Shown here: positions 12,291 through 49,831 of the stretch, one piece after another | How positions within the stretch are numbered: position 1 is the stretch's first letter | Layout of the letters: each line of letters begins with the position of its first letter | Origin: Diplonema papillatum | Taxonomy: Eukaryota > Euglenozoa > Diplonemea > Diplonemida > Diplonemidae | DNA: 64,000 nt | Assembly (NCBI GenBank): GCA_030068145.1 | Contig: JAPJBO010000239.1 | Location: 1 to 64,000 of the forward strand | Reading direction: 5' to 3' | Notes under the pieces: model-generated | Told to the model about the DNA's origin: nothing | Database searches by the model: none | Seen by the model: the letters and a program-made list of their open reading frames with translations, nothing else | Program-made: the position numbers and the translations under genes

Positions 12291-12299
12291 TACACCCCT

Positions 12300-14512
12300 A
12301 AATTTTCAGGAGAAGGGCCATCTGACGGACCCCAGTACATGCCTGGCATATAGGGTGACGACGGCGTTCTACGCGGCGTGCGAGAGGATGCCACGACTTC
12401 TGCCTCTGATGGAGAGCATCCGGGGAAGGTACGCCGAGGGGGACCTACCCCTGGGGCCAGTTGGACTGGCGATGAGGAGCATGGAGGAGTGTGGACACAT
12501 ATGGGGACCAGGGCCCCTGTCTCGCACGCTGAGGAATGGTACAATGTTTGACCCGATAGCCTCGACACCCTCGAAGAGGGGGCATGAGGTGAGGGCGAAT
12601 TTGAGGGCGAAGACGTGGTCCCGTCTGGTAGCGAGGCGGCCGGGATTTGAGGGTGCAGAGGGCTGACCTGGAGCGGACGAACTCCTTCTGGAGGATGCGT
12701 GAATGTCCCGCGCACACCGCGAGGCTTATACGTATAGCGTTGGCGGGAGGAGTGAACACGGCTGAGTTCACGTCGCGGATGAGGCAGGCCGGAGCTGAGC
12801 CGCAGGCGCCCAGCTGCAAGCACTGTGGAAGCGGCGACACCGACGGACGAGAAACACGTATTCTGGGACTGTACGGCGACGAGAGGCACATGCCGAGCTG
12901 ATGGCGGCCAACCGGGCCGACCGGCCCAGATGCACGCTGGAACACGGAGTGGTAGTACCCGAGAATGCCCACTTCTCGAGGCGGCTCCCGGAGATGATGG
13001 CTGAAATCCTTGCGGAACGGGCAGGGCTCGAAGCACGAGGCTGGGTAGCCAGGAACCCCACGACCCCCTGGTCGAGAGCGGATGCGATGCCTGCCGAGAA
13101 GCTCGACCACCCCTTTGCGCGGATTGCCCCGGCATGGGCGTGGGAGCTGGGGACTACCGACGTTTTATGCGTTGGTAGCGTGGCTGTCAGACATGGAGTG
13201 GACCGAGAACGGGCAGGCGTCAATGCTAGAGCTTGCCATCGACTTTGAACTCTTTTCAGGCCTCAGCATACCGCTGCACGAGAATGCACCGAAGGGGGTG
13301 AGGGAGCGAGGAAACGTCCTGCGCTGCATGATCAGCGCGTTGGACAAGCTGGCGACACAGCAAGGGCTGGGGAGTTGCGAGAGAGGCGAGAGAGTATGCC
13401 CGACGACGTCGCTGTCGTTCATGGGCATCACGGGGATATCGGGGGTGCGGCCCAGGCCCCGCTTTCGCGAGGCACACACGGGGACGATCCTCGAAGAGCA
13501 GGTGAAGGGAAGCGATGTAGGGACGCAGTGCCCGACGTACCCGGACTGGACGGCCGAGAGAGCGGCGAGGTGGGCCCTGCCTGCCCCACCACAGCTGCAC
13601 CCCGACCCCGTGCATATGCCGGGTGTCGGAGTAGAGAAAGCACTCGTCACCTGCGCGACCCACCACAAGGGGAAGTGTGAGGCGTGCCGAGCACTCGTCC
13701 GAAGGGACGTACCCACGGTAGAGATGTGCTGTCGGCACCATCACCACGCTGACGATGGGCAGCCGATCGCGGTGTGCGTGGAGCACAGCACGACGAAATG
13801 CGGCGAGTGCAAGACGGCGGCGGCGTGCTGCCGCAGCGGGCATCATGCCTGCCGCACGCATGGCAGAGGAACCTGCCAAGAATGCAGGAGGCTCCCTACG
13901 TTGACGCAGAGGAGACCGGCAGCGTGCTGCCGCCGCGGCCACCACCAACCCAACGAACCGAACGCCCCGGCAACCCCCGGACACAGCAAAAAGAAGAAGA
14001 GACCCCTCTCACCCACCCAGGTGGGCGTACAACGAGAAACGCCGGCGGGAAAGCGCGCGGCGCAGGCGCCGCCCGCCGTAGCGAAGCAGAAGACGGCGAC
14101 GACCGGACGGGCGGCCAAGAGGCCACCAACGCCAGGAACCAGCGAACGACCAGAGGGTGCTCGGCATTTCGAAGGAGAGCCCGATTGCCGGCCGCAAGCG
14201 GAAGAAGGCGAAGGCGACCACACCCGAGTCAGGGGTGCAACGAAGAAAGAGGGAGGCCCTTAAAGCAAGCAGCTACCAGAAACGTCCGACGTCCCCAAGC
14301 ACTCCAGTGCCCTCGAGAGTGAAAAACGTGCAAGCCTGTCCGCACCTGTGCCCCCACGCAATCTCCAGAACCGCAAGAAAGCCCAGCTCCCCTGGCGCCA
14401 CAAGTACTCGACCTTGACGACGCAATGACAGGTGACGATGTCATAAAGTAACCTTAAGCGGCGACACAGTGCATGTTAATCCGTGTGGCTCATGTACTTA
14501 AAAGAACTCAAC
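12300..14512 (+). mobile_element. LINE copy A (5'-truncated)
   Basis: Begins at a position equivalent to 16500 of copy B (NFQEKGHLTDP) and runs to the shared 3' end CATGTACTTAAAAGAACTCAA. The RT domain is absent. The remaining coding sequence is broken by at least two frameshifts (near 12655 and in the 12845-12900 deletion) and becomes continuous only after about 13150. 5' truncation is the common outcome of target-primed reverse transcription. There is no poly-A tail; the end is non-adenylate, shared exactly with copy B. Confidence 0.85.
13082..14263 (+). pseudogene. LINE copy A C-terminal ORF remnant
   Basis: A 393-codon frame covering the C-terminal part of the LINE protein. It includes the segment ENGQASMLELAIDFELFSG, a Cys/His-rich repeat block (CATHHKGKCEACRAL, MCCRHHHH, KCGECKTAAACCRSGHH, TCQECRRL, CCRRGHH) and a basic, proline-rich tail. 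It starts in frame only from about 13150, and the upstream reading frame is shifted. It matches copy B residue for residue over most of its length. No RT motif is present, so it cannot be functional alone. Confidence 0.7.
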
Positions 14513-15410: not shown

Positions 15411-18326
15411 TTGCCGCTCCCCCTGCTGAATGCACTTGCGGACGTCATGAACCTGGTCGAAGCAACTGGAGACTGGCCGGCAAGCATGACAACTGCGCTG
15501 GTGTCGATGGTGCCGAAGGATGAGAGTCAAGACCCGCTGCACACAAGACCGATAACCGTCACATCCGCCGTGTACCGCCTATGGGCCTGCCGCAGGCTGG
15601 CGGACATAGTACTGTGGCAAGAGGAATGGATCGAAGAAGGACAGAAAGGCTTTCGACCAGGTCACCGGATCGAGGACGTCTTGATGGAAATTGGGCTCGA
15701 GATGGAGGACGCCTTGTTAGACGGGGAGCCGCTCTACGGTGTGGCGCTGGACTTCCGGAAATGCTTCGACATGGTCCCACGAGAGATAGTACTGCGCTTA
15801 GCCGAGGACTTAGGATTGCACAATCGGGTTCTCAAGCCGCTGAGGGCTATCTACAGACTGCTCGCGAGACGCTTCAAGCTACCATTAGGGGTGGGCAGGG
15901 AGTTCAGTGTGACCAACGGTATCCTTCAAGGGTGCCCTGTATCCGTCATACTCATCAATGCCCTGCTGTCGGTAGTGATGAAAGCGGTCAAGAAAGAAGC
16001 GGAGGGTGTGAGTCCAAAGTCATACGCGGACGACGCCACACTGCTGTCCAGGCTGTCGGAGGCCGCCCTGCAAAAGGGAGTGGACGTAGTAGACGAGTTC
16101 TGCACACTCACCGGTATGGAGCTAAACCTCCAGAAGACGGTCGCGTTCTCGACGAGACGTAGGCATCAGTCGACTCTCAAACTCCGCAGCGTGGATGCGC
16201 TGCTGCGGTTTAGCAAATCCGTCAAGTGCCTCGGGGTCCTAGTCTCGACGGCGAAGAATAGGACGGAAAGGTCCGACTCGGAGAGGGTGGAGAAGGCGGC
16301 TGCCCTGGCGGAAGGCCTCCGCCATGCGCCGTTCCGGTACGAAAAGCGGGTCCGGATTGTGCAGTCGAATGTGCTACCGGCGGCGCTGTCAGGCTGCTCT
16401 TTCGCGCCGGTATCGAAGGTGGCGATGAAACGGCTGACGACGTCGGTGATGGGACTGATCTGGGGTGGATCCAACCCGAAGCGCGCGAGGGAGATGGTCC
16501 TAAACTTTCAGGAGAAGGGCCACCTGACGGATCCCGGTACATGCCTAGCATATAGGGTGACGACAGCGTTTTACGCGGCGTGCGAGAGGTTGCCACGACT
16601 GCTGCCTCTGATGGAGAGCATCCGGGGAAGATACGCCGAGGGGGACCTACCCCTGGGGCCAGTTGGACTGGCGATGAGGAGCATGGGGGAGTGTGGACAC
16701 GTATGGGGACCCGGGCCCCTGTCTCGCACGCTGAGGAATGGTGCAACATATGACCCGTTAGCCTCGGCACCTTCGAAGAGGGGACATGAAGTTAGGGCGG
16801 ACTTGAGGGCGAAGACGTGGTCCCGACTGGTGGCGAGGCGGCCGGGATTTGAGGGCATACAGAGAGCCGACCTGGAGCGGACGAACACCTTCTGGAGGAT
16901 GCGTGAATGTCCCGCGCACACCGCGAGGCTTATACGTGTAGCGTTGGCGGGGGGGGTGAACACGGCTGAGTACACGTCGCGGATGAGGCAGGCCGGAGCT
17001 GAGCCGCAGGCGCCCAGCTGCAAGCACTGTGGAAGCGGCGACACCGAGGACGAGAAACACGTATTCTGGGACTGCGGAGCGTACTCGCACATACGGCGAC
17101 GAGAGGCACATGCCGAGCTGATGGCAGCCAACCGGGCCGACTGGCCCAGATGCACGCTGGAACACGGAGTGGTAGTACCCGAGAATGCCCAATTCTCGAG
17201 GCGGCTCCAGGAGATGTTGGCTGAAATCCTTGCGGAACGGGCTGGGCTCGAAGCACGTGGCTGGGTGGCCAGGAACCCCACGACCCCCTGGTCGAGAGCG
17301 AATGCGATGCCTGCCGAGAAATTTGACCACCCCTTCGCGCGGATTGCCCCGGCATGGACGTGGGAGCGGAACAAGACCTGGGGACTACCGACGTTTTATG
17401 CGTTGGTAGCGTGGCTGTCGGACATGCAATGGACCGAGAACGGGCAGGCGTCAATGCTGGAGCTTGCGATCGACTTTGAACTCTTCTCGGGCCTCAGCAT
17501 GCCGCTGCACGGGAATGCGCCGAAGGGGGTGAGAGAACGGGGAAACGTCCTGCGCTGCATGATGAGCGCGTTGGACAAGCTGGCGGCACAGCAAGGGCTG
17601 GGAAGCTGCATGAGAGGAGAGAGGGTGTGCCCGACGACGTCGCTGTCGTTCATGGGCATCACGGGGATATCGGGTATACGGCCCAGGCCACGCTTTCGCG
17701 AGGCACACACGGGGACGATACTTGAGGAACAAGTGAAAGGAAGCGATGTAGGGACGCAGTGCCCGACGTACCCTGACTGGACGATCGGGAGAGCGGCGAG
17801 GTGGGCCCTGCCTGCCCCACCACAACTGCACCCAGACCCCGTGCATATGCCGGGTGTCGGTATAGAGAAGGCACTCGTCACGTGCGCGACCCATCACAAA
17901 GGGAAGTGTGAGGCGTGCAGAGCACTCGTCCGAAGGGACGTTCCCACGGTAGAGATGTGCTGCCGGCACCATCACCACGCGAACGATGGGCAGCCGATCG
18001 CGGTGTGCACAGAGCACAGCACGTCGAAGTGCGGCGAGTGCAAGACGGCGGCGGCGTGTTGCCGCAGCGGGCATCATGCCTGCCGCACGCATGGCAGAGG
18101 AACCTGCCAAGAGTGCAAAAGGCTCCCTACGCTGACGCAGAGGCGACCGGCGGCATGTTGCAGCCGCGGCCACCACCAGTCCCAAGCCGAACGTCCAGTC
18201 AACCCCCGGACGCAACAAGAAGAAGAGGCCCTCCTCACCCACCCAGGTGGGTGTACAGCGGGAGACGCCACTAGGAAAGCGAGCGGCGCGAGCGCCGCTC
18301 GCGGCAACGAAAAAGGAGACGGCGAC
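15411..18326 (+). CDS. Non-LTR retrotransposon reverse transcriptase polyprotein
   Basis: Copies element RNA into DNA at a nicked target. The RT core is clear: motif A ALDFRKCFD (about 15745), motif B NGILQGCPVS (about 15917), motif C SYADDATLL (about 16018) and motif D GMELNLQKT (about 16114). A zinc-knuckle-like CKHCGSGDTEDEKHVFWDC lies near 17025, as in other LINE proteins after the thumb. Next come a region with no family I recognise (LPTFYALVAWLSDMQW, ENGQASMLELAIDFELFSG) and a Cys/His-rich repeat block near 17880-18170. The open frame continues to 18572, but the residues after 18326 come from the inverted segment. The natural N-terminus lies upstream, across a frameshift near 15405, so this copy is probably inactive. 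No RNase H or endonuclease motif is visible. Confidence 0.85.
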
Positions 18327-18712
18327 TTCTGCTTCGCTACGGCGGGCGGCGCCTGCGCCGCGCGCTTTCCCGCCGGCGTTTCACGTTGTACGCCCCCCTG
18401 GGTGGGTGAGAGGGGTCTCTTCTTTTTGCTGTGTCCGGGGGTTGCCGGGGCGTTAGGTTCGTTTGGTTGGTGGTGGCCGCGGCGGCAGCACGCTGCCGGT
18501 CTCCTCTGCGTCAACGTAGGGAGCCTCCTGCATTCTTGGCAGGTTCCTCTGCCATGCGTGCGGCAGGCATGATGCCCGCTGCGGCAGCACGCCGCCGCCG
18601 TCTTGCACTCGCCGCACTTCGTCGTGCTGTGCTCCACGCACACGGCGATCGGCTGCCCATCGTCAGCGTGGTGATGGTGCCGACAGCACATCTCTACCGT
18701 GGGTACGTCCCG
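18327..18712 (-). repeat. Inverted LINE segment inside copy B
   Basis: Reverse complement of the Cys/His-rich coding region, making a ~390-bp-arm palindrome with 17930-18326. The inverted segment follows copy A (13712-14097) more closely than copy B: it carries copy A's GCGGGAAAGCGCGCGGCGCA where copy B differs. It was therefore probably copied from copy A or a sister element. Confidence 0.8.
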
Positions 18713-22599: not shown

Positions 22600-23610
22600 G
22601 TTAACAACATGTTACCTCGCATGACTGAGGCCTGCTTCGAGTGGCTCCGAGGAGAAGGCAGCGACTACACAGTGCAAGTTTGCTATCTCCAAATTTATCT
22701 GGACTCCGTGTACGATCTTCTCAGTGGAACAAAAGCCGACAAGAGGGGGGAGGTATTGGATCACAAGGGAAAGACGCTGGACGCCTTGCCAAAACGGTAC
22801 GTTCAAGTGACAACAGCAGCAGAAGCGGTATCTCTAGTCAAGAAAGGCAGCCGATGGAGGGCCACAAATCAGCACGCATTGAATGACCGCAGTAGTCGGT
22901 CACACACATTGTACTTCTTGACTATAGTTCGGAATCATGCAGAATCGGGGTCTTCCATTGAGTCGACTCTGCTTTTGGTGGACTTGGCGGGCAGTGAGCG
23001 GGCGCATAAGACCAAAGCTTCCGGAGAGGTCTTCCAAGAAGGCAAAGCTATCAACAAGGCGTTGACAACCCTCGGACGAGTGATGGAAGCACTCTCGAAG
23101 GGAGACAAGAGCGTGCCGTACCGGGAGAACATTTTGACGATGTACCTCAAAGAGACACTGACCAACTCGTTTTTTGCGTTGATCTGCTGCTGTTCGTCAG
23201 ACGGGCGCGACGCTGACGAAACCAGGTGCACGCTAAAGTTTGGGTCCGTTGCGAAAAATGTATTGATTACTCGCAAGGCCAATGAGTTAATCAAGCTCCG
23301 GGCCGTCGCGCGCGAGAAGAAGCAGGAACATGCTCGCGAACTCACGGAAATGGCAAAGCATCACCACGAGCAAATCAGACAGCTCCAGAAGCAGATGCAA
23401 GAACACGAGGCAAACCGGACGCACTGGAAAGAAAAGGTCAGCGCCATGGAGCAGCAGCTCGAGCGTCAGCGTGCGAAACTCACTGGCGTTGAGACGGCCG
23501 CGAAGGATCTAGCAGACAAACTGTCCAACAAAGAAGCCGACTTTGAGAGTACCGTTTCCGCTTTGACAGCTATCAAGGAGAGGTACGCAGAGCTCGTCGA
23601 AGAGGTGAAG
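22600..23610 (+). CDS. Kinesin exon 2: main part of the motor domain
   Basis: Residues 178-514. Switch I is NDRSSRSH (272-279) and switch II is DLAGSE (305-310), followed by INKALTTLGRVMEAL, VPYRENILTMYLKETL and the motor end LKFGSVAKN (about 390-398). A coiled coil starts at about residue 400. The acceptor is CAATTCAG|GTT and the donor AAG|GTGTGC, both phase 0. The link from P-loop to LPRM is about eight residues shorter than in conventional kinesins, so either loop 5 is short or a tiny exon in intron 1 was missed. Confidence 0.85.
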
Positions 23611-23948
23611 GTGTGCCTGAAGATTTTTCCAACCTTCCATGTCAGCAGGCCCGATTTCCTGCAGCTCAAAAAAGCAAAACATGAATCAGTCTATGAGCGA
23701 GTGCATAAAAATGATCTTGTGGATCTCATTCCAGTCCCTGAACCAACGAAACCGCGCACGAAACCTGCAAAAACGTGAGCCGGCGCGATCACTGTTCCTC
23801 ATGCAATCACACGGTATCTGCTCAAGAACCCGCGTCTCCAAAGTTACTTCGTTCCGTACGCTCCACATTTTTTGCTTTCCCTGAAGTACCCAGTAGCCTT
23901 TAGTGTCTCCGCGGTGCAGTGTAATAGCTCTTACCTTGCTCTGTACAG

Positions 23949-37093: not shown

Positions 37094-38377
37094 CTGTACG
37101 TTTAATTATTTTCAGTGTATTTTCGTACTCCTGAGGCGTGCTCGGGGGTTTCTTCCCCCGAAACAGGTTGTTGGCGATTTTTGACCCCAAGGCTGGTGAG
37201 GGGGACGCCGAGAAACACGAAAGAAGGGCTAAAAGTGGTGAAAATGGGGCATTTTGGCCAGTCTGGCAGTGTGGCTAGATGTGGCTGATTCCCAATGTGA
37301 TCCTTGGAACACCCGCGGAACACCTTCAAGCGTCCCCGGAACACCTCGGAGTGTCCCCGGAACACCTCGGAGTGTCCCCGGAACACCTCGGAGTGTCCCC
37401 GGAACACCTCGGAGCGTCCCCGGAACACCCCGGAGTGTCCCCGGAACACCTCGGAGCGTCCCCGGAACACCTCGGAGCGTCCCCGGAACACCTCGGAGCG
37501 TCCCCGGAACACCCCGGAGTGTCCCCGGAACACCTCGGAGCGTCCCCGGAACACCTCGGAGCGTCCCCGGAACACCCCGGAGTGTCCCCGGAACACCTCG
37601 GAGCGTCCCCGGAACACCTCGGAGCGTAACAACAAGCACGCGTACAGGATGGGTATCATGGAAGGGATCATGGAAGAAGTGGGGATCATGAAAGAAGCAG
37701 GAGTGGAGATATTTACTATTACTATTGATGTTAGGTCCAATGACGATGTGCTCTTGCTTCTCTCCCTTTTCTTGGCTGTATACGCACAACAGAAATCCGA
37801 GGTGTTCCGGGGACGCTCCGAGGTGTTCCGGGACAGGCCGCACCGGACCTACCCGGGACAGGCCGCACCGGGCCTACCCGGCAGCCGAGGCAACATAGAC
37901 CGCACCGGGTCTACCCGGCAGCCGAAGCAAGATAGGCCCACCGGGCGGCAGGGGAAGGTGTTCCGGGGACGCTCCGAGGTGTTCCGGGGACGCTCCGAGG
38001 TGTTCTGGGGACACTCCGAGGTGTTCCGGGGACACTCCGAGGTGTTCCGGGGACGCTCCGAGGTGTTCTGGGGACACTCCGAGGTATTCTGGGGACACTC
38101 CGAGGTGTTCCGGGGACGTTTCAAGCTGTTCCGGGGACGCTCGAAGGTGTTCCGGGGGTGTTCCAAGGATCGCATTGGGAATCAGCCACATCTAGCCACA
38201 CTGCCAGACTGGCCAAAATGCCCCATTTTCACCACTTTTAGCCCTTCTTTCGTGTTTCTCGGCGTCCCCCTCACCAATCTTGGGGTCAGAAGTCGCCAAA
38301 AACCTGTTTCCGGGGTGGAAAACACCCGAGCACGCCTCAGGAGTACGAAAAAACACTGAAAATAATTAAACGTACAG
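37094..38377. mobile_element. Foldback element with (CCGGAACACCTCGGAGYGT)n arms
   Basis: The outer ends CTGTACGTTTAATTATTTTC and its inverse are followed by ~190 bp of matching unique sequence in each arm. Then comes an array of 24-bp units CCCCGGAACACCTCGGAGTG (left, 37310-37625) or its complement (right, 37795-38165). The central ~170 bp is unique. The long proline/arginine-rich ORFs on both strands (for example 37304-38359) are readings of the array. Confidence 0.8.
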
Positions 38378-38877
38378 AAGACCCCTAGTTAAATGGCTGG
38401 AGTCGCACCCCCTACGCTCCCCCCCCCCAATGTTGGCACCCTACCTGTTTTTTTGTTTTTTTGTTTTTTTGTTTTTTTGTTTTTTTGCTGTTTTTTTGCT
38501 CTGGAGGTTTGTGTTTTTTTGCCCTGGTGGTCTGCTGGTGCACTCTTGCTGGCTCGGGTGAGCCAGGGTCTTCCACATGCAGGCCAGCGGTCTGGTGAGG
38601 TGGCATTTCGAGTACTTATCAGAAGCTTTTGAAGCAGTCTGCAGAACTATCAGGATTGTTGAGCAGTAGCTGAATGGGCTTGGCAGGCAGAATGTGAAAA
38701 GCTGGGCGTTTTTTGGTGGCCTAGGTGCAGTGTAGCAAGGTTCGGCCGGGCGTGTGCACGAGTATTTGGGTTCACCAGGAGGGCCTTGTTTTTTGTTTTT
38801 TTGCGTTTTTTTGTTTTTTTGTTTTTTTGTTTTTTTGCTGTTTTTTTGCTCCAGGATTCGTTTTTTTGCCTACATTG
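38378..38877. repeat. (T7G)n microsatellites
   Basis: TTTTTTTG tracts at about 38447-38490 and 38785-38850, otherwise no structure. No gene seen. Confidence 0.7.
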
Positions 38878-38896
38878 CCCCCCCCCCCCCCCCCCC

Positions 38897-39528
38897 AGGG
38901 GTACCTGTAATCCGGGGCCCGGGCCCTGGAAAATTATCCAGGGTTTTTGGCCCTGAACGATTACCAAAGGAAAAACTCTCTGGTACGAGATGCAATTCGT
39001 TTACAATTCCATTCCAGGGCCCCAGACTGTCCTTGAGCTCAACGGATTCAAAAGCGTTCAAAAACGTCCTCGGAATGTATTTTTCGACACAGCCACAAAA
39101 CCTGAAGGAGGTTTTCAGGTTCTGGCAGGTCTAGCTGGCTACCACGGCTCAGCCACCTAAGGTCACAGGTGGCAAGGTGGGCGTTGAAAAAAAAAATTTT
39201 TTTTTGGGCCGGAATCCCTAAAAACCCGCATTTCGGAAAGTTTTAGTCCCACATTTTTCCCAGGGCATTTTGACCATTTCACCTTAGAGCCTCCGCCCGC
39301 TCAGCCCCTATGGTAAATGCACGACTGTGAGCTTTTTTTATCAATTTTATCAAGTTTATTTCTTGATTTTCTCTCGTCTTGCTCTCCGCTTGTTGTGGAA
39401 GCTGCAATATTGAAGATTCCATCCTTGGATGGCGTGATTACCGTGGGCCTGGACCCTATCTGGACCCTAGCGCTAACCCGGGGCCCGGGGCCTGGGCCCC
39501 GGAGACCCTGGATTTACAGGTACCCTTG
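38897..39528. mobile_element. MITE with GGTACCTGTAA termini
   Basis: AGGGGTACCTGTAATCC followed by GGGGCCCGGGCCC at the left is inverted at the right (GGGCCC.., GGATTTACAGGTACCCTTG). It is preceded by a 19-C tract and followed by a C-tract into which the Penelope-like element is inserted. Confidence 0.7.
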
Positions 39529-39537
39529 CCCCCCCCC

Positions 39538-39914
39538 TTTTTTTAATCTGACGAAGGAAGGATGCGATAAACATTGGAACCAGAAAGTTGTGAAAGCACC
39601 GGAACAGGACCGAAAGTCCCCGTCCAAAGGACCCACTGAAGAGCTCTAACTTTGGATTGGTATGCGTTCAAGAGCGAAACCAGAGACAAAGAACGAGGTG
39701 CTCACAACACCGCGGTGAAAAAAAGAAAAAAAGAAAAAAAGAATACAGAGGAATAGTCCCTCAAGGTTCCAGACCCTACCTGCGGAGTCTTACACTCCCT
39801 GCGACCCTTTTCCCTTTCCCCTATTTTATTTTACACTTTCTTCGACGAAGACTTGATGCTAGCATCAAACATGCATGCGAGGCAGTACTCTGCCTAAACA
39901 TTAAACTAAGTTTT
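39538..39914 (+). repeat. PLE1 left pseudo-LTR
   Basis: 377 bp beginning TTTTTTTAATCTGACGAAGG and ending AAACTAAGTTTT, then six C. It holds a hammerhead-like core (CTGAAGA, a 5-bp stem GCTCT/AGAGC, then GAAA; 39636-39679) and two hairpins near its end (TTGATGCTAGCATCAA and AGGCAG/CTGCCT). The start of the ORF lies about 1 kb downstream. Confidence 0.8.
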
Positions 39915-40966
39915 CCCCCCGACAGAGTCTGCCGGCCCTCTGAGGGCACAGGTCTCACTCTGCTCTCCAAGACGGAGAAGACATCGATTCTCAGAAAATA
40001 TGGGAATACCCAAAAACCTACGAAGATAGGAAAAACCCCCAACCGACTGTGACAAAGCAGCACCGGCAACGGGAACCAGACCCAAATAGCACCGAGCTGA
40101 CAGAGACCCCACCTCCGACCTCACAAAAAATGTGAAGTTTGGAAAGGACCGCGTTGTCTACGCGGGAAAAGGTTGACTGTCAGTCATTCTCTTCCCTCCT
40201 TCAAACCCAACAAGACCAGTCTTCCGGATGGTAAACGGAAAGCGAACCATACAGCCTTTCCCCTCCCCACCTATCGGATGCAAATGTGACGTCCCAACGC
40301 TTCTCTGCAGCAACGGCGACTGAAGTCCGGAAGCAAAACCCCGCATCCCTTTGTTGGCCGCGTTGCCGGATCTATAAACAGCGCTTCCGAGTGCCGTAAC
40401 GAACCGGCCCCCAGCAAAGTAAAAGTTTTATTTAAACCCGCCCCACACCCCGCGTCAGAGAGGAAGGATGTCTACCTTCCAGCAACCCACTTCTCCCCAC
40501 CCGTTTGGAACAGAGACGATACTAGCTGACCGCAAGCCGATTTCTCGACAGTGGCTCTTGTTGGGGCAGCCATTAACAACTGACGGGAGGAAGCAAACAG
40601 TCAAACTTTACCGTCTCCCCCGAACAAACCCCACTTTCACCCCATCACAACCCCCAACAGGGTTCACAGAAGAGCACAGGTGTCATCCACACCCGTGTGA
40701 GGCAAAGCCAGGGAAACCATAACCCCGGGCGACAACCAAAAACCCGAAACACAACCGAACAAAAGGATGTTGCAACCACACGATGGCCCCTTGCCGTGTG
40801 ACCGTAAAAGAAAACCGCAGGACCGCCTTTGGACCCGTCAGCCTGACACGCTGGCAGACTCAAAGTAAAAACCCCCTTTACCGTTCCGAAACCGACACAG
40901 AAAGTGCCTAAGAAGCACATACTACGACGGCTTAGTGGATCGTCCGCAACCACCGAGTCCGATAAC
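39915..40966 (+). other. PLE1 5' leader
   Basis: About 1 kb between the left pseudo-LTR and the first in-frame ATG. Short ORFs only. No structure recognised. Confidence 0.5.
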
Positions 40967-43900
40967 ATGAAAGTGAACTACTTTGATGACGAACTCGAGG
41001 GAACAACCGGTAAGACAATCGTTGGAATTCCGATTCGGACAGATGACGAATGTCTTATTTTCCGACAAAGCCATTCCCAGGAAGGACCTGAACTTGTTGG
41101 TCGATTCCCAATGAAACGAACGGAAGGAAAGGAAGAGAAAAGCTGCGACGAAGGTCTTTCCAGACCCCAAACAGCCCCAAAACAAAGGACCCGGGTCGCC
41201 GCACAGCACCCGGGTCACACCAACCGACAAAAAGAGCGCGAACAAAAGAGGCCAAAAAAAGAAACCCTCAGAGCACAAAAAAGCCGCACAAAATCGGATC
41301 AACGACCACAGGACTCTGAGGCAAAAAAACCAAAAAAACAAAAAACCAAAAACGAACAACGCGCCCATAAAAAAGAGAAAAAAGATCGGCAAAAAACAAA
41401 ACGGCCCAAGTCAGACACCCGCTTCCTCGCCGCCTTCGTCAACACCCGCAACAATCCATACAACGACGACGGACATGCAGAACGAAGACGAAATGCGATC
41501 CAGCTTTTTTGGAAGCGCAACGGTAAGAAGGTAACAGACGGGCGAACGAAGTGCGGGATCGACACAAAGAACGTCGCTGACGACGGAACAGGTGTCATCT
41601 ACGTGCTCGTGAACGAAGGGGGCACAGCCCTCTACGTTGGGCAGACGTCGAAGACGGCCGAGACGCGTAACAACAAGCACTGGGAGAACCGTAACTCCAA
41701 GCGCAACCGCGTTGCACAACAACTTCGCAAACGAGGCCGTAAACTGTACGCATGCCCGATCCAGAACGTCCCGGAGCGACTCTACACGCAACCAGCAGAC
41801 TTCCCGCGGGTAGCGCTACCGATTGAGGACTTCTGGATAAAGTGGCTCAACCCTCCCCTGAACATGACGAATCGACGCCAAGGGGAAAAGGTTGGCCACA
41901 AGCCGCATAAAAAGAAGAAACGACAGCGCCCACCACAGCGTCTCCGAAAACGGCGCAGCGATGGCAACACCTGGCACCGCATGCGGGACGGCAAGCTCGA
42001 AATCGACACCTCGCCAGGCTTTTGTTCTGGGTTGCGGAAACAACTGGACCACCTCATCAGGCTTCCCCCTGACCAGTTGGGGATGTATGACTTGTCCACT
42101 TGGCACCCGAACCGCGCCCTACGCCTCCGCACCTGGCTGAGAACCTTCATACAGGGCGAGAGCGTAACAGACAACGTGAGAACTCTCGAACGACTTCTCA
42201 GTCAACGCATCAGGAACCGGACCGAGAAGAAAGCAGCACCTCCCCGCCGATACTTCAAGCTGACCCACCAACACCCGGCACAAGACCGCACGGCAATCGC
42301 TGGTGTCCTTTCTCGAACAAGGATTCGCGAGGCATGCCCCAACCCGGCGGTTCTCGATAATCTCATGGTGAGCAACCGCCTGAAACCACCGTTGGCGACA
42401 CTCCTGTGCAACTTCACCGAGGTCAGCTACGAGACGCACCACCCGACAAACACCGAGGCGACCTGTCCGTGCAAACAACACATACAGACTAGTCACCTCG
42501 ACGGACACGCTCTGGGGCTAGCAACGGACCTGAAGACAGACGAGGCCCTTTTGTCACTTTTCCGCAAGGGACGAAAGTACCGAGTAGCCAGCAGCCCTAT
42601 GTCACTCTACGATTCGATGCGGTTCGACGTCGAAGAGTTCGTTACCAATAACTTTAGGAAGTCAAGCGAGAGCGAGAAATCGCATTTTGCAGCAACACTG
42701 ACAGAAGAGTTCGACACCGTTCTTGGAACGCTCAACGCACACACGGACGAGCCGCACCTCCGAGATGCCCTGCGGACGCTGAAGAAACTGCAAGAACACC
42801 TTGTCATTCTTCCTGTAGACAAAACTGCACACGATTTCGGTTTCATCTGCAAGGAAAAGTACAAGGAACTCATTCGAAAAGAGCTACACCAAAGCTCAGC
42901 CTACAAACATGTTGACACCTCGATGGCAGACATTCTCCAGCAACACCAAACCTTCAACAAGTCCCACAACTTCACCCACTCCAACATCCTGCCATATCTA
43001 TATGGTACTCCGAAGCTACACAAACCCGAGCCTCGGATGCGGTACATTGCCGGCGTTTCAGAGAAGGGAAACACGGAGAAAACGGACGAACAGCAGGCAA
43101 AAGCTGAAAAAACTCCCAACAAGAAGCAACCGAAGACGCGCGCCTCAACAACACCAGCCCACCAAGAGACATCGGGCATCCTAAAACTGGTTCTAGCCAC
43201 ACTGCAAGGCAAGGACGAAGCGTCTCGGGCAAAGACGGGGATACGTCGCTTCTTCGTCGTCGAATCAATTGACGGCGTAGCCGTTCACATTAAGACAAAC
43301 TACGCACGGCTACGCCAGAAGGTCCCACGTACATTCGATTTCAAAGAAATGTACACAAAGATTCCGCAACAGCGAATTGTAGAGTACGTCATGCTCGCTG
43401 TGTCGGAAGCATTCGAGTACGCGAAGGCGGAACGTGGTTGTGACCTGAAGGCACGACGGTCGAAGCAGCAGTTCGAGTTCAGCAATGCTGACGCGATGGA
43501 CGCGACAGCATACAACGTCGAGGAGATCCGGGAATTGGTCGAATTCATTGTCGGCAACACGTTTGTGACGAACGGTGGTCAATGTTACCAGCAGGTAACT
43601 GGAATTCCAATGGGCGGTAACGCAAGCCCAGATCTGGCGAATCTGTATTGCTACTGGTGTGAAAAGCTTTACATCGATAGCCTGATCACGGAAGGACGCC
43701 ATGAAGAAGCCAGAGCCCACGCCGACAGCGTCAGGTTCATCGATGACTTCCTGACTTGGAGTGCACGACCACCACCGGAAGCAATCTACGGCATGGAATA
43801 TTCGGAAACGTCGAAAGACGTTGACGACGTAGTCTTCTTGGGAATGCGCGTTAGAGTTGAGAGGGGTAACAAGGCCAACTTCATCCGACTCTCCGTTCTG

Positions 43901-45193
43901 GACAAGGGTGAAGAGTTTCCATGGTACCCCATCAAATACACGCATGCCGAGTCGACGGTCCCGCGAAACACCGGAACCTCGATATTCAAAGGTGCCCTGA
44001 TACGAGCAGCCCGCATCTGCAACAACATGCCTGATCTCAAAGTCGAGATCATGAAGGTGTATTACCGGTTGCGAGATCGTGGGTTCTCCGGACGTGAACT
44101 GCGACACACGTTCGATACTTTTGTCGTGCAGACATACGGCAAGTACGAACTGGACGCACGGGTGCTGACACAGTTTTACCACTATGTTGGGAAAGCCTAT
44201 GACGAAGGACGCCCAACGAACGAAGAGAAGCCGTTCATCAACACCCGACAGCCGAACCGACCCACCTCCCCACCACATCAGACGCCCAACCCGCCCGAGC
44301 CCGAAAACACCACAACGACGGTCTCGCCCTCAAACGAACCAACAGGTTCTCCCAAACGCAACCGCAACGGCATCACCAACGTTCGCAACACGTGCTTCTT
44401 TGCCGCCAGCGTCCAATTTCTGGCACGCAAACGAAACTTCCGGAACCAACTCGAAACTATTGAGCGTCCGGATGAAGAACAGTTGAAAATCCGTCGACTT
44501 TTCACGGATTTTGATGCTGGCCGTGACATCCATGGTTCGATGGCAGAAATTCGAAGTCTCGTTTTCGGCACAACTGAGAACGACTCCGAACACCGTGATG
44601 CCCACGAACTGCTGACATGGATGAGAAGCTGCGTGAGGGGGGATAACAATGACCCAACGATGGTTACATACTCACGGCGAACCACCTGTAAAGTGTGTCA
44701 GGAGACCTCGACAGCGGTGCCGGTGTTAGAACCATTTCTCCTTGTAGAGCTCAAAAACAGGGAGAACTCCTACACCGAGACGGTTGAAGCTCTTGTAAAC
44801 AAAGTAAAGAACAAGAGAGCAGCCGATGTCGACCTCGACTGTACAACATGCCGAAAAAAGACGGTAGGCTCCTCGAAAGAGGTCTATGCCTTTCCAAATA
44901 TGATGGACGTGGCACTGAAACGGGCCCAACGGTCGAAGAGGACAGGCGAGGAGATAAAAGTGAAAGCCCGCACACCAATCCAATCAACCATTGGGATTGG
45001 CGAAGACACGTACATGGTGACGGGTTTCATAATCCACACTGGAAAAGTACATGCTGGGCACTATTACACCATTATGAAAGAAGCAGACGAATGGGTGTGT
45101 TATGACGACCAGCAAGTATCAGTGCTCTCATGGGAAGCATGTGCCGGAAAGTTCGTTTCGAACGGTTACATCGTCTCCCTTGAGAAGATATAA
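40967..45193 (+). CDS. GIY-YIG/reverse transcriptase/USP polyprotein of PLE1
   Basis: A 1,408-residue ORF; the frame is open 21 codons further upstream without ATG. Domains in order: (1) a Lys-rich region (~60-170). (2) GIY-YIG endonuclease (~208-301) with GVIYVL, LYVGQT, a conserved arginine in TAETR and IEDFWIKWLNPPLN. (3) RT of Penelope type with YGTPKLHKPEPRMRYIAG (~673-690), FDFKEMYTKIP, GIPMGGNASPDLAN and RFIDDFLTW (43732-43758). (4) A linker, then a ubiquitin-specific protease fold with the Cys box GITNVRNTCFFAASVQFL, a HRDAHELL box, two CxxC pairs (CKVC, CTTC) and the His box VHAGHYYTIMKEADEWVCYDD. The N-terminal endonuclease is the permuted order of the Naiad/Chlamys group. All catalytic motifs look intact. 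The USP domain would cleave ubiquitin from targets; its role in the element is unknown. Confidence 0.9.
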   Translation: MKVNYFDDELEGTTGKTIVGIPIRTDDECLIFRQSHSQEGPELVGRFPMKRTEGKEEKSCDEGLSRPQTAPKQRTRVAAQHPGHTNRQKEREQKRPKKETLRAQKSRTKSDQRPQDSEAKKPKKQKTKNEQRAHKKEKKDRQKTKRPKSDTRFLAAFVNTRNNPYNDDGHAERRRNAIQLFWKRNGKKVTDGRTKCGIDTKNVADDGTGVIYVLVNEGGTALYVGQTSKTAETRNNKHWENRNSKRNRVAQQLRKRGRKLYACPIQNVPERLYTQPADFPRVALPIEDFWIKWLNPPLNMTNRRQGEKVGHKPHKKKKRQRPPQRLRKRRSDGNTWHRMRDGKLEIDTSPGFCSGLRKQLDHLIRLPPDQLGMYDLSTWHPNRALRLRTWLRTFIQGESVTDNVRTLERLLSQRIRNRTEKKAAPPRRYFKLTHQHPAQDRTAIAGVLSRTRIREACPNPAVLDNLMVSNRLKPPLATLLCNFTEVSYETHHPTNTEATCPCKQHIQTSHLDGHALGLATDLKTDEALLSLFRKGRKYRVASSPMSLYDSMRFDVEEFVTNNFRKSSESEKSHFAATLTEEFDTVLGTLNAHTDEPHLRDALRTLKKLQEHLVILPVDKTAHDFGFICKEKYKELIRKELHQSSAYKHVDTSMADILQQHQTFNKSHNFTHSNILPYLYGTPKLHKPEPRMRYIAGVSEKGNTEKTDEQQAKAEKTPNKKQPKTRASTTPAHQETSGILKLVLATLQGKDEASRAKTGIRRFFVVESIDGVAVHIKTNYARLRQKVPRTFDFKEMYTKIPQQRIVEYVMLAVSEAFEYAKAERGCDLKARRSKQQFEFSNADAMDATAYNVEEIRELVEFIVGNTFVTNGGQCYQQVTGIPMGGNASPDLANLYCYWCEKLYIDSLITEGRHEEARAHADSVRFIDDFLTWSARPPPEAIYGMEYSETSKDVDDVVFLGMRVRVERGNKANFIRLSVLDKGEEFPWYPIKYTHAESTVPRNTGTSIFKGALIRAARICNNMPDLKVEIMKVYYRLRDRGFSGRELRHTFDTFVVQTYGKYELDARVLTQFYHYVGKAYDEGRPTNEEKPFINTRQPNRPTSPPHQTPNPPEPENTTTTVSPSNEPTGSPKRNRNGITNVRNTCFFAASVQFLARKRNFRNQLETIERPDEEQLKIRRLFTDFDAGRDIHGSMAEIRSLVFGTTENDSEHRDAHELLTWMRSCVRGDNNDPTMVTYSRRTTCKVCQETSTAVPVLEPFLLVELKNRENSYTETVEALVNKVKNKRAADVDLDCTTCRKKTVGSSKEVYAFPNMMDVALKRAQRSKRTGEEIKVKARTPIQSTIGIGEDTYMVTGFIIHTGKVHAGHYYTIMKEADEWVCYDDQQVSVLSWEACAGKFVSNGYIVSLEKI

Positions 45194-45263
45194 ACACTTT
45201 CACTCAGTGGAAGCAGTGCCCCGTGGCGGTTGGTTACGAGCCACAACCCAAACCAGAACCCCC

Positions 45264-45640
45264 TTTTTTTAATCTGACGAAGGAAGGATGCGATAAACAT
45301 TGGAACCAGAAAGTCGTGAAAGCACCGGAACAGGACCGAAAGTCCCCGTCCAAAGGACCCACTGAAGAGCTCTAACTTTGGATTGGTATGCGTTCAAGAG
45401 CGAAACCAGAGACAAAGAACGAGGTGCTCACAACACCGCGGTGAAAAAAAGAAAAAAAGAAAAAAAGAATACAGAGGAATAGTCCCTCAAGGTTCCAGAC
45501 CCTACCTGCGGAGTCTTACACTCCCTGCGACCCTTTTCCCTTTCCCCTATTTTATTTTACACTTTCTTCGACGAAGACTTGATGCTAGCATCAAACATGC
45601 ATGCGAGGCAGTACTCTGCCTAAACATTAAACTAAGTTTT
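45264..45640 (+). repeat. PLE1 right pseudo-LTR
   Basis: Same 377 bp as 39538-39914. An open frame runs through it into the PLE2 ORF downstream, so the frame starting at 45383 is a fusion artefact in its first ~90 codons. Confidence 0.8.
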
Positions 45641-47995
45641 CCCCCCTCGTACCATTTAGGTGAAAACCATCAGAAACGCTGTTTTACTTTCAAGCTATCG
45701 ACGGAGCTAAGTTCGCAGCAGGCAGCGTATTCCGCGCAGGACCTCAAAGCTCTCCTTGCCTTCTGCCTAGCGAACACGTATGTACTGGTGAATGGCACCC
45801 TCATGCGGCAAATACTGGGCATCCCGATGGGTGCTAACGCCTCCCCGGACATTGCAAATCTCTTCTGCTACGCAAAGGAGAAAAGGTACATGCTGAAGCT
45901 CCTGGCTGAAAAGGAAATCCGACGGGCTACACTCCTCAGCATGACGCGCCGTTTCATCGATGACCTACTGTGCTTCGGGACGAAACCCCCGCCCGAATCC
46001 ATCTACAGCATGCGATACAAGCAGACGAACACATGCGTAGGGGATTCCACCTTCCTTGGCATACGAATAAGACACGAAGTCTCCGACGCGTCTGGAAGGA
46101 GGTACATGCGACTGTCGGTTCTGGACAAAGCGAAAGCCTACCCATACCGCCCCCTCGCGTACACGTCGGTCCTCTCGACGGCCCCGTCCAACTTCGGTTC
46201 GAGTATCCTCATTGGGGCCCTCGTTCGTAACGGTAGGATCGCCAACAACCTGTATGACTTCAAAACTGAGATGAACAACACGGTTTTGAAACTCATGCGA
46301 CGCGGTTACCGTAAGAGCGTACTAAAGAGCGGTTTCCGCAAGTGGCTACTAGATACGTATCCGGAGGCTAAGTTTGGCGAGCATTGCGGGAAAGTGCGTG
46401 CACATTTCTTTTGGCTGATCCACGAGGTGGAACGTGTCCTGTTGATGCTAGAACCGGCCGCGATGGACCAGGCGATTGAGCGCCTTCTGGCTGAGAAGCC
46501 CTTTGTGAAGTACAGAGGCCACCCCCAACCCGTTCCAGAAGCCGACTCCCCCCCACCGCCATCCCCCGAGACGTCGGCCCGACAGGCAGACTCGACCACC
46601 CCCCCTGAGTCCACACGGAAGGGCCACAAACGAAAGGCTGAAGGGGACGAGCAACGTGACTCGAAGCGACGCCGGGCGAATGCCTGTAAACCAGCTCATG
46701 CAGTTCCCCCGACATCCACACGCTGCCAATCGGTCATCTGTGCAAGTCCGCCTTTCGTGAAGCATGATCCGGCACTGTTTGGTCCTGCCGGCCTCCCAAA
46801 TCTGGGGAATACGTGCTTCCTTGGTGCTGTGCTGCAACTCCTCATACGGGTTGAACCGATCAGGGAGATGTACTGGAGCCTTGCTCAGGACCGCCTCAAC
46901 TGCTGTGGGTTCCTCCGGGACTTCCTGGCTTACTTTGCCGTATTAGCAAGCTCGCGCGACAGCGGGGACCAGCGCAGCCAGGACTGTCGAAGAATGGGTG
47001 TGCAGGCCGTCTTAAACATGTTCCCAAACTTCTGCGATGCGCTGCAGCACGATGCACACGAAGCATTGGTAGCGATCCTGAACGCGACTGAGACGACGCT
47101 GGGACCGGACGAAACCGAGGCCCCCTGCCCGGGCTACCAGCTCTTCTTAGCATGCGTGGAGAACCGTTGGACCAACACGACACGATGTGAGGCATGTGGA
47201 CGAACTAGTTCCAGCCCTCAGGCGGTACAATGTCTGCAGATCCCCTGCGGAAAAAGGCTGGAAGATTCTCTCTGCGTACGCGGGTTTGTAAATCCGAAGA
47301 GAGGGTGCGACTGCGAAGCTGTAGGGACTGTGGCAGAGGATACGAACCTCCGGCTAACGGCTGATTGTGTACTGATGCAATTTGGCATCTACACGAGAAA
47401 TGGCGCTAGACGCCGGAATGACGTTGGGTTACCTCTCCTCTTAGAGCTACCGGGCCACCTACTGCGCCTCGCTGCAGTCGTGGTGCACTTGGGGGAGAGT
47501 ACGGCTAGTGGGCACTTCGTCACGTACGTTGCGCAAGACTCAGGTTGGATCCTCTTCGACGATCTACGGGTCAGCCTCGTCGAGGACATTCCTTGGGACA
47601 ATGTTTACCTCGCGGCCTTTGTCCGGGTCCCCCAGATTGCCCACAGCGTGACTGTCCGTGCGCCGTCACCCTCCATGATACTTCCTGCTCAAGATCAGCT
47701 ACGCGGCTCGTCTACGCCCCCAAATTCTGCCGGTGTTGTGGTGAACCGACAGTCGGAAGAATCACCTAACCTGCTCTACCCTTCTGGTAGTCCATTGCCC
47801 TGCCCGCCCTTGCCGGACTCCTTATGCCCGACCCCGCATGGTCAGCTGTTGGAGCAGCAGTGGGCGGGATCCCCTGCGCTGCGGTGTCAACACTGCGCCA
47901 TCGAGTGTACCAAAGATGGGCAGAAGTTTCAGGGTTTGAAGGGACTCCGTGCACATGAGAGACGTTGCCGCCTCGCGAGTGAAAGACTCTGAACC
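45641..47995 (+). mobile_element. Penelope-like element PLE2, 5'-truncated
   Basis: Starts at the C-tract junction with TCGTACCATTTAGGTGAAAA, a match to the end of the MITE at 49192-49831, and then enters coding sequence between RT motifs A and B. Its protein is only distantly similar to PLE1, so it belongs to a different family or subfamily. Confidence 0.75.
45650..47992 (+). CDS. RT (partial)/USP/zinc-finger polyprotein of PLE2
   Basis: An open frame continuous with the upstream pseudo-LTR; the element's own coding starts near 45650, probably at RCFTFKLS. It holds RT motif B (LGIPMGANASPDIANLFCY) and C (RRFIDDLLCFG), but motif A and everything upstream, including any GIY-YIG domain, are missing. 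A Pro/Lys-rich linker leads to a canonical USP: Cys box GLPNLGNTCFLGAVLQLL, LQHDAHEALVAIL, CEACG and CDC zinc ligands, and His box SGHFVTYVAQDSGWILFDD. A C-terminal C2H2-type finger follows (LRCQHCAIEC, LRAHERRC). The protease residues look intact. Truncation of the RT makes the copy incapable of autonomous movement. Confidence 0.85.
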   Translation, partial: YHLGENHQKRCFTFKLSTELSSQQAAYSAQDLKALLAFCLANTYVLVNGTLMRQILGIPMGANASPDIANLFCYAKEKRYMLKLLAEKEIRRATLLSMTRRFIDDLLCFGTKPPPESIYSMRYKQTNTCVGDSTFLGIRIRHEVSDASGRRYMRLSVLDKAKAYPYRPLAYTSVLSTAPSNFGSSILIGALVRNGRIANNLYDFKTEMNNTVLKLMRRGYRKSVLKSGFRKWLLDTYPEAKFGEHCGKVRAHFFWLIHEVERVLLMLEPAAMDQAIERLLAEKPFVKYRGHPQPVPEADSPPPPSPETSARQADSTTPPESTRKGHKRKAEGDEQRDSKRRRANACKPAHAVPPTSTRCQSVICASPPFVKHDPALFGPAGLPNLGNTCFLGAVLQLLIRVEPIREMYWSLAQDRLNCCGFLRDFLAYFAVLASSRDSGDQRSQDCRRMGVQAVLNMFPNFCDALQHDAHEALVAILNATETTLGPDETEAPCPGYQLFLACVENRWTNTTRCEACGRTSSSPQAVQCLQIPCGKRLEDSLCVRGFVNPKRGCDCEAVGTVAEDTNLRLTADCVLMQFGIYTRNGARRRNDVGLPLLLELPGHLLRLAAVVVHLGESTASGHFVTYVAQDSGWILFDDLRVSLVEDIPWDNVYLAAFVRVPQIAHSVTVRAPSPSMILPAQDQLRGSSTPPNSAGVVVNRQSEESPNLLYPSGSPLPCPPLPDSLCPTPHGQLLEQQWAGSPALRCQHCAIECTKDGQKFQGLKGLRAHERRCRLASERL

Positions 47996-49191
47996 GTCGT
48001 TTGGGCCTCATCGAATTCCTGACTGTTGGCTGGTCTATTTTACGCTCTGCACCCGTTCACCCTGACTAACGGGAAACAACTCGAAGTGTTCTATACGGGT
48101 GAATGCGCACTATCATGAGAGGATGAAGGCACGCATATCCCGCCTGGCCCTGTGCTAGGCGTAGTTTTAGGTTGTACTTATTTCCGAACAACCTACCACG
48201 AGCTTATCCACCCACACACCCAACTTTTTCCCCTTTCTTCTAAATTCTTTTTTTTTTCTTTTTTTTTTTTTGGAGCGCGGGACACTGTACTTGCCATGTT
48301 GGTACAGCGGGGCTGCCGGTATCCGGTTGCTTCCGGAGCGGTAGTCCAAAGAAATGCTTCTTCAGCACACAGTGAACGCCACCTCACTGCGACCTGGGCT
48401 GGCCTGCATCTGAGTGCAGGTCCGACCAGGTAAAAAAACCCGCGATGCAGTGACTCTTCCCCCTGCATCAGGGTGGATTCGCTTCGTCCGGTCGCGCCCC
48501 ACCAGATGCAATTACGATCCTCGCCACCCCTTGGGCTATAGAAAAGCTCAAGCGGTGGAAGAGGTCCTGGCAGGCGGCCGAAGCGGTCCGGTCTTCACGG
48601 AGGGCGTTCGCGCGGGCGATGTGCCGCAGCTCCGTGATTGCTCCTGGGCACCAGGCCCCGAACGTGTCTACAACTAGCGGCACCGCTCGCCACTCCCGCG
48701 GGTCCGGCTCATTTGCGATGATCCTGTTGTAGACACGCTCCTTTAGACACGCTCCTTTAGACACGCTCCTGTTGTAGACACGCTTTTTTTTTTTTTCCCC
48801 GCTGATGACTAACGGACCGTCGGACCCGTCCCAACGGGGATACTTATGGAAGTTACAATGAAGGCTTAGACCGGTACGGGCTACATGGCAACTCCTGCTC
48901 AACATGTAGAACGTGGGGAGCCCTTGGTCACATTCAATACGGGTGTGATCGTGGTGTCGGTCGCAACAGTCGTTTGGTAGCCAAAGAGAGAGATAGAGAG
49001 AAAAAGAGCGCCAGAGAGAAAAGAAAAGATAACGTTATCTTCCGGAAAAGAAGGGTTACGCGAACCCCCGAAAAAAAATAATAACAAAAAAACAAAAACC
49101 GAAAAAAAAAAAAAAAATACAAACCGACGAAGACCCCAAAAACCTTTTTCAACCTCTCCAATTCCCTTCAAGCTAGACCATTATACAACGA
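47996..49191. other. Non-coding stretch after PLE2
   Basis: No gene is seen. It includes a T-tract near 48250, a three-fold repeat of TTTAGACACGCTCC near 48735-48785 and an A-rich stretch near 49060-49120. The first ~150 bp could be the PLE2 3' UTR. Confidence 0.4.
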
Positions 49192-49831
49192 CCCCCCCCC
49201 CCCCCCCCCCCTCGTACTATTTAGGTGAAAAACATCAGATATCTCCTGAAAAAGCTAAAAGTACACTCCCCAAAGTTTCAGAGTGACTCGTACTATTTAG
49301 CCACTATTTAACCACTATTCAACTACCATTCAACCAGTGGCATGTAGAGTGAGCCTCATGAGGTCTCACTCTAAGTGATGCAACCACATTTTTCTTGGTT
49401 GTCGCTAAAACTGAACTGGGGGGTCTCCGCCGAAATCTTCCGTTTTTCTAATTCTAAGTGACGCTGAAACCGCACTTTTCAGTCACAGTGGACAAAAGTG
49501 CATGGGTGTCACTAGAGTGAGGCTCACTCTAAGTGACCAGTGACTGTCTAATGGGCTCAAAAGGACTAAACACACACTGTGCTCGCAGCAGCTCTCGCAT
49601 TGCTGATGCAGTAGCGGTGGTGAACCTTGACGAATCAGTGATGATGGACCTGGACACGCTCTCGTCGTCTTGTCCTTCACCTGCATCAAAGAGAAAACGG
49701 GGAAGGGACCTGTCCAGCGAGCGCTCTTAGCCGGACCTAAAACTTAAAAGTCGTTGCGGCTGGGGGCACCCCTTAAAACTTTTTAAAAACAACACTCGTA
49801 CTATTTACCTAAATAGTACGAGGGGGGGGGT
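49192..49831. mobile_element. MITE with CTCGTACTATTTAGGT termini and poly-C ends
   Basis: The left end is 20 C followed by TCGTACTATTTAGGT; the right end is ACCTAAATAGTACGA followed by nine G. The inner sequence contains repeated ACTCTAAGTGA words with inverted partners near 49350-49530. No ORF of interest. Confidence 0.8.

Follow-up and report, generated by a model that had tools for sequence, protein, structure and literature searches.

Why mobile elements carry deubiquitinases or SUMO proteases is a standing question in the field, and one locus of Diplonema papillatum raises it in a specific form: is ubiquitin a barrier to retrotransposition, against which elements carry their own antidote? 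The locus lies in positions 1 to 64,000 of contig JAPJBO010000239.1 (64,000 nucleotides, hereafter the window), where a sequence-only reading had described a retroelement open reading frame (ORF) fusing a GIY-YIG endonuclease, a reverse transcriptase (RT) of the Penelope-like element (PLE) type, and a ubiquitin-specific protease (USP), and had proposed that the element uses deubiquitination. The protein of this element, which we call family A, looks able to cut DNA, to copy RNA into DNA, and to strip ubiquitin, judging from its domains and motifs.

The family-A element and its ubiquitin-specific protease

The frame at 40967..45193 (+ strand, as are all features of the element given below) is open exactly as claimed, with 1,408 uninterrupted codons between an ATG at 40967 and a stop at 45191-45193; open reading continues for 40 codons on the 5' side, yet 40967 is the earliest ATG in the frame. 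ORF and Pfam analysis divide this single protein of 1,408 aa into a basic N-terminal extension, a GIY-YIG domain, a Penelope-type RT, a linker, and a USP.

The USP domain (Pfam UCH, PF00443) covers residues 1135-1391 (44369..45139), extends approximately to the end of the protein, and is highly significant (E 3.5e-18; 66.6 bits, the cut-off being 23.9). All of the USP landmarks picked out from the sequence alone were located. The catalytic Cys1143 (codon 44393..44395) lies in a Cys box, NVRNTCF, which also contains Asn1138; a DAHE motif follows at residue 1211, then two CxxC pairs at residues 1241 and 1292 (44687..44851), as in the fingers zinc site of USPs, and finally the catalytic His1365 (45059..45061) in the His box HAGHYYT, with Asp1380 at 45104-45106. 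In each of the 11 full-length loci examined (nine of family A and two of a second family, B), the catalytic Cys, His, and Asp/Asn and the oxyanion Asn are kept, as are the signature motifs of endonuclease, RT, and USP. By phmmer, the best PDB match of the domain is USP21 (9.5e-6), while its alignment profile matches USP46/USP12 best (USP46 at 2.4e-27), and its predicted structure, a low-confidence model, matches USPs, with USP7, USP1, and USP46 among the best.

The endonuclease domain occupies residues 209-296 (41591..41854; PF01541, E 5.2e-6, 27.1 bits for a cut-off of 22.6) and keeps GVIY, YVG, R234, H238, E287, and N299. The RT region spans approximately residues 370-1085 (42074..44221) and contains the motifs DKT (618), PYLYGTPKLHK (676), FDF (791), GIPMG (within GIPMGGNASP, 879), RFIDD (within RFIDDF, 926), and FLG. 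Of the three domain calls made beforehand, GIY-YIG and UCH thus stand above their Pfam cut-offs, whereas RVT_1 is sub-threshold (E 0.092, 12.9 bits for a cut-off of 29.6), and because of this the identity of the RT rests on its motifs and on homology to the metagenomic protein P0013. The latter matches the family-A protein with an E-value of 3.3e-16 and itself carries RVT_1 (1.8e-9) and an N-terminal GIY-YIG (1e-7). The RT region is also homologous to P0012 (1,104 aa, on a 3.7-kb metagenomic contig), the closest non-Diplonema relative of family A among the matches (E 4.1e-54), in which Pfam recognised no deubiquitinase. The permuted order proposed for the element holds, as the nuclease (residues 209-296) precedes the RT motifs (618-957).

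The ORF lies between two pseudo-long terminal repeats (pLTRs) of 388 bp, at 39533..39920 and 45259..45646, which are 99.7% identical (one mismatch), define a repeat unit of 5,726 bp, and have ends common to near-identical copies with different flanks. These pLTRs were an addition to the initial description. On contig C510, three family-A units stand head-to-tail with a spacing of 5,726 bp, the similarity of the first beginning inside its 5' part, and a partial tandem lies downstream of the full-length family-B copy L021, so that pLTRs, head-to-tail tandem copies, and 5' truncation, the anatomy of PLEs, are all present. No target-site duplication was recognised by eye at the junctions. An Rfam search of 38800-48500 gave no hammerhead ribozyme with an E-value of 1 or less, although a divergent or minimal hammerhead could escape it.

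A search of the 271-Mb D. papillatum assembly, in which 33 family-A copies were scored out of 4,249 first-look candidates, gave 12 near-identical copies (nine identical, three with one residue change) and 21 others with 73-82% identity. All 33 carry the USP fusion in a frame free of stops. Among the 12 near-identical copies, the termini are the same wherever visible, with mostly C-rich junctions, and the flanks readable outside the tandem array (seven left and eight right) are all different; shared termini combined with distinct flanks indicate separate insertions of a recently active element. Judging by these copies, the family-A element is young and structurally intact.

Deubiquitinase domains on other retroelements

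Family B, represented in full length by L021, shows the order GIY-YIG, RT, USP, and C2HC finger. Its GIY-YIG is borderline with respect to the cut-off of 22.6 bits (20.1, below it, in L021; 22.6 and 23.0 in its relatives P0015 and P0017). A genome search with the GIY-YIG profile (127 matches; 150 of 225 candidates scored) brought up repeated frames of 2,210, 1,457, and 1,544 aa that belong to neither family A nor family B. From the three additional families, C, D, and E, one copy each was read. The family-C copy (L043) has a UCH match (3.2e-14) and two C2HC fingers; the family-D (L044) and family-E (L045) copies have one finger each and an OTU domain instead, with E-values of 1.9e-5 and 9.8e-9 and scores of 25.6 and 36.2 bits for a cut-off of 23.3. 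The UCH scores, for the cut-off given above, are 60.0-66.6 bits in A, 72.8-82.4 in B, and 53.6 in C. Of the five families, all but A have the same kind of C2HC finger C-terminal to their deubiquitinase domain. The C-terminal slot is therefore filled by USP in A and B, by a USP-like domain in C, and by OTU in D and E, that is, by a USP or USP-like domain in three lineages and by OTU in one (D/E).

As USP and OTU are different families, at least two captures must have occurred across these PLE families. In a USP tree of 26 rows, which excludes family C and one (L030) of the 16 host loci taken, A and B are each monophyletic (100/100) on separate long branches. The best tree joins A with the host row L038 (90/89), and a single A+B clade, as expected for one origin of their USP, is unrejected by the approximately unbiased (AU) test (p-AU 0.104). 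Over the nuclease and RT, pairwise identity is 29-37% among A, B, C, and D/E and 60% between D and E, and it drops to 19-28% when any of them is compared with two outgroups. The RT tree of A to E is weakly supported (42/39 for the USP group), with only the two metagenomic outgroups, long branches, and a family-C row that retains its N-terminal extension. No USP-bearing PLE from outside Diplonema appears among the matches of the protein searches, two of which were confined to the 7,999 and 7,975 candidates with the most shared words. The only non-Diplonema match with a USP, P0022, has convincing similarity to family B in the USP alone, and Pfam recognised no RT in it.

A UCH profile search of the genome gave 149 matches (149 of 935 candidates scored), of which 95 share their score in three groups (11 at 85.9, 43 at 85.3, and 41 at 76.5 bits), and 17 more fall in the same range, leaving aside one row on contig C2681 and one on C70. 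Four of these 112 rows were read and all belong to family B: L022 (76.5), L042 (85.3), L040 (81.1), and L041 (80.7). The 34 higher-scoring rows look mostly like host genes, except that one, L039, clusters with family B. L039 (contig C9:546020-546900) lies in a 702-aa frame, has the top USP score among the rows clustering with B (114 bits) and, as the first branch within B in the USP tree, could be an early-branching copy.

The OTU search (150 matches; 150 of 656 candidates scored) hit mostly repeated long frames. Four of the families concerned were read (L046, L047, L049, and L050), and Pfam identifies them as long interspersed elements (LINEs) with an N-terminal OTU, an APE-type endonuclease, RVT_1, and RNase H or RVT_3; the OTU is thus at the opposite end from that in the PLE families. 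The spacing of adjacent OTU matches, 7,548-7,550 bp on three contigs and 6,111 bp on one, suggests tandem LINE copies. Two controls, each of one family in this one genome, gave 26 papain (Peptidase_C1) matches (40 scored) in frames of 211-499 aa and 5 Ulp1 matches (7 scored) in frames of 283-673 aa, with no frame of retroelement length among either. When these counts are set beside the UCH groups, it is deubiquitinase folds that are enriched on retroelements, and neither cysteine proteases in general nor Ulp1-type SUMO proteases.

Relation to described elements and to the rest of the window

The Naiad/Chlamys group, reportedly described by Craig et al. in 2021, comprises permuted PLEs whose single ORF places an N-terminal GIY-YIG ahead of a Penelope-type RT. 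The Diplonema elements share this arrangement, to which they add a USP or OTU at the C-terminus and, except in A, a C2HC finger. Ectocarpus is another reported source of Chlamys-group PLEs (PMC12477816). Canonical Penelope/Poseidon PLEs, as presented in PMC11167929, have in common with the Diplonema elements a GIY-YIG and a telomerase-like RT in one ORF, pLTRs, and tandem arrays, but they have the nuclease at the C-terminus and possess a hammerhead ribozyme, whereas no Rfam match was obtained in the family-A element. In a term search of that text, "protease" occurs once, as a reagent, and neither "protease" nor "ubiquitin" was found in the main text of a paper on rotifer PLEs (PMC3846280).

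The closest printed precedent for a USP that we found is among DNA transposons: PMC2836005 describes Ginger1 elements with a C-terminal OTU or Ulp1 and a Trichomonas fusion of transposase_11 with peptidase C19. These share with the Diplonema elements the combination of a transposase or mobile-element protein with a C-terminal deubiquitinase or SUMO protease. They differ in being DNA transposons with OTU/Ulp1 alternatives, whereas the Diplonema elements are retroelements with USP/OTU. Ubiquitin-related or captured domains also occur in Helentrons (OTU), in Burro giant Gypsy elements (ubiquitination-linked domains), and in Terminons, which are PLEs with captured ORFs, but no deubiquitinase is among the Terminon cargo listed in the relevant passage (exonucleases, esterases/lipases, Rep, and others; PMC6431247). 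A term search in the main text of the D. papillatum genome paper found neither "Penelope" nor "ubiquitin", and no PLE with USP or OTU was found in searches of open-access literature, a printed report elsewhere being possible. Deubiquitinases and SUMO proteases have been published for some DNA transposons.

The window contains a second USP-bearing PLE which the sequence-only reading had not described, a 5'-truncated family-B copy at 45672..49211 (+), with 99.9% and 98.4% identity to L021 in its two parts. A 519-bp insertion at 48265-48783, near the 3' end of the copy and directly after a T-rich run, separates these parts. Its USP (46790..47587, +; PF00443, E 1.1e-20) lies in the frame 45383-47992, and its C-terminal C2HC zinc-finger-like motif is at 47885..47968 (+), a position carried over from L021. 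A search of the genome with the family-B protein of the window (52 of 4,582 candidates scored) gave long matches including many partial copies, one with an internal stop. The insertion of the family-A element within a family-B copy is unsupported: the B copy begins 25 bp past the 3' pLTR of A, after a filler at 45647..45671 (+), and the 5' part of L021 is unmatched in the window, which makes a junction formed by 5' truncation or by a partial tandem likelier.

Several GenBank models of Diplonema proteins (P0005, P0008, P0009, P0010, P0015, P0017, and P0018) either give element copies the names ubiquitin hydrolase 26 or 16 or contain element sequence while bearing the name of a host gene (UNC93-like protein 3, dynein intermediate chain 2, STIP1-like, and rRNA-processing protein 12). 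Such models are probably annotation artefacts that would inflate host deubiquitinase counts. Elsewhere in the window, a 1,053-aa frame at 15411-18572 (RVT_1 E 7.6e-21, no GIY-YIG or UCH match) is part of another retroelement, and 16499-18326 repeats 12297-14100 at 90%. A kinesin motor domain frame at 22609-23778 (Pfam E 9.1e-50) is a probable host gene, and tandem repeats occur at 8652-9569 and 37304-38188, part of the latter having a 21-bp unit and being open in frame.

Possible roles of ubiquitin removal

The presence of a USP, or of an unrelated OTU, in the same slot of related PLE families gives indirect support to the proposed use of deubiquitination by the element; that related retroelements carry two unrelated folds of this kind points to ubiquitin removal as a selected property. 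Neither of the two conditions set beforehand for refuting the sequence-only reading, an insignificant UCH match or an assembly chimera, holds. We consider it fairly probable that family A is a permuted PLE whose USP strips ubiquitin from the protein of the element itself or from its partners, so that the ribonucleoprotein evades ubiquitin-dependent degradation or extraction until integration. The protein would cut DNA and copy its own RNA at the target, as presumed for other PLEs; the USP, tethered to the same ribonucleoprotein, would remove ubiquitin from that protein or from immediate partners, and the particle would thereby persist long enough to integrate.

We calculated pairwise Nei-Gojobori ratios of non-synonymous to synonymous substitution (dN/dS) for 15 pairs from six family-A loci, which represent four distinct lineages as L013/L015 and L016/L017 are almost identical. 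These rough ratios are 0.11-0.25 for the USP, 0.06-0.15 for the RT core, and 0.05-0.10 for the nuclease, and 0.23-0.41 and 0.27-0.62 for the linker and the N-terminal extension, respectively. In family B (L021 and L022), they are 0.22 for the USP, 0.07 for the RT, 0.14 for the nuclease, 0.34 for the linker, 0.63 for the spacer after the USP, and 0.08 for the finger (31 codons). For the OTU of D and E, synonymous sites are saturated. By these values, the USP of A and B is maintained by purifying selection on the element, less strictly than the RT.

Several observations weigh against a protective deubiquitinase. Judging from its dN, which is 1.4-2.7 times that of the RT core in A and approximately three times in B, the constraint on the USP is weaker than that on the RT, and dS often exceeds 1 among the A subfamilies, hence the roughness of the ratios. 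The predicted USP model has a mean pLDDT (predicted local distance difference test) of 62, which is low confidence. In addition, the oxyanion Asn is replaced in the family-C copy (TTRNSCF), whose last triad position is Asn, and the family-E OTU reads GNGNC, such that some copies may have altered activity.

It is less likely, but worth serious consideration, that the deubiquitinase has other substrates where the target is cut, namely ubiquitinated chromatin or repair proteins such as H2A/H2B, PCNA, or FANCD2, and in this way makes integration easier or directs repair. USP46/USP12, USP7, and USP1 act in chromatin and repair, and these are the best profile match and among the top structural matches of the domain. 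The long basic N-terminal extension of A and a stretch in the B linker which by eye resembles a bipartite nuclear localization signal suggest a nuclear protein. A role via repair was also proposed for the OTU/Ulp1 of Ginger transposases by Bao et al. (PMC2836005).

We think it very unlikely that the USP in practice serves to process the polyprotein or to bind without catalysis. Proteases are frequent in polyproteins of retroelements and viruses, and families C and E deviate beside the catalytic centre, but Pfam recognised in neither the A nor the C ORF a ubiquitin-like domain behind which a USP could cut, the Cys, His, and Asp motifs are intact in all of the A and B loci examined, and the unrelated OTU fold in the same slot would share deubiquitination and not a processing site. 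Finally, the idea that the fusion is a functionless product of misassembly or transduction, with a USP exon of the host attached to a PLE, can practically be dismissed, even if GenBank models label such copies ubiquitin carboxyl-terminal hydrolases, given the 33 stop-free copies, the distinct flanks of the 12 near-identical ones, the USP present in all subfamilies down to 73% identity and under purifying selection, and its recurrence in further families.

Self-protection of the element's ribonucleoprotein from ubiquitin-dependent removal is our best guess from these sequences. More tentatively, ubiquitin signalling in diplonemids could be a main barrier to retroelements, answered by exchangeable deubiquitinase cassettes: permuted PLEs would have captured or swapped USP and OTU in one C-terminal slot, before a C2HC finger in four of the five families, and APE-type LINEs would have independently placed OTU at the N-terminus. 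If this is true, deubiquitinase copies on retroelements would outnumber those in host genes of this genome. D. papillatum is reported to accept gene replacement, according to the genome paper. With related PLEs, two unrelated folds in the same slot, and near-identical intact copies, all in the genome of this one host, the question of why mobile elements carry such proteases becomes directly testable.

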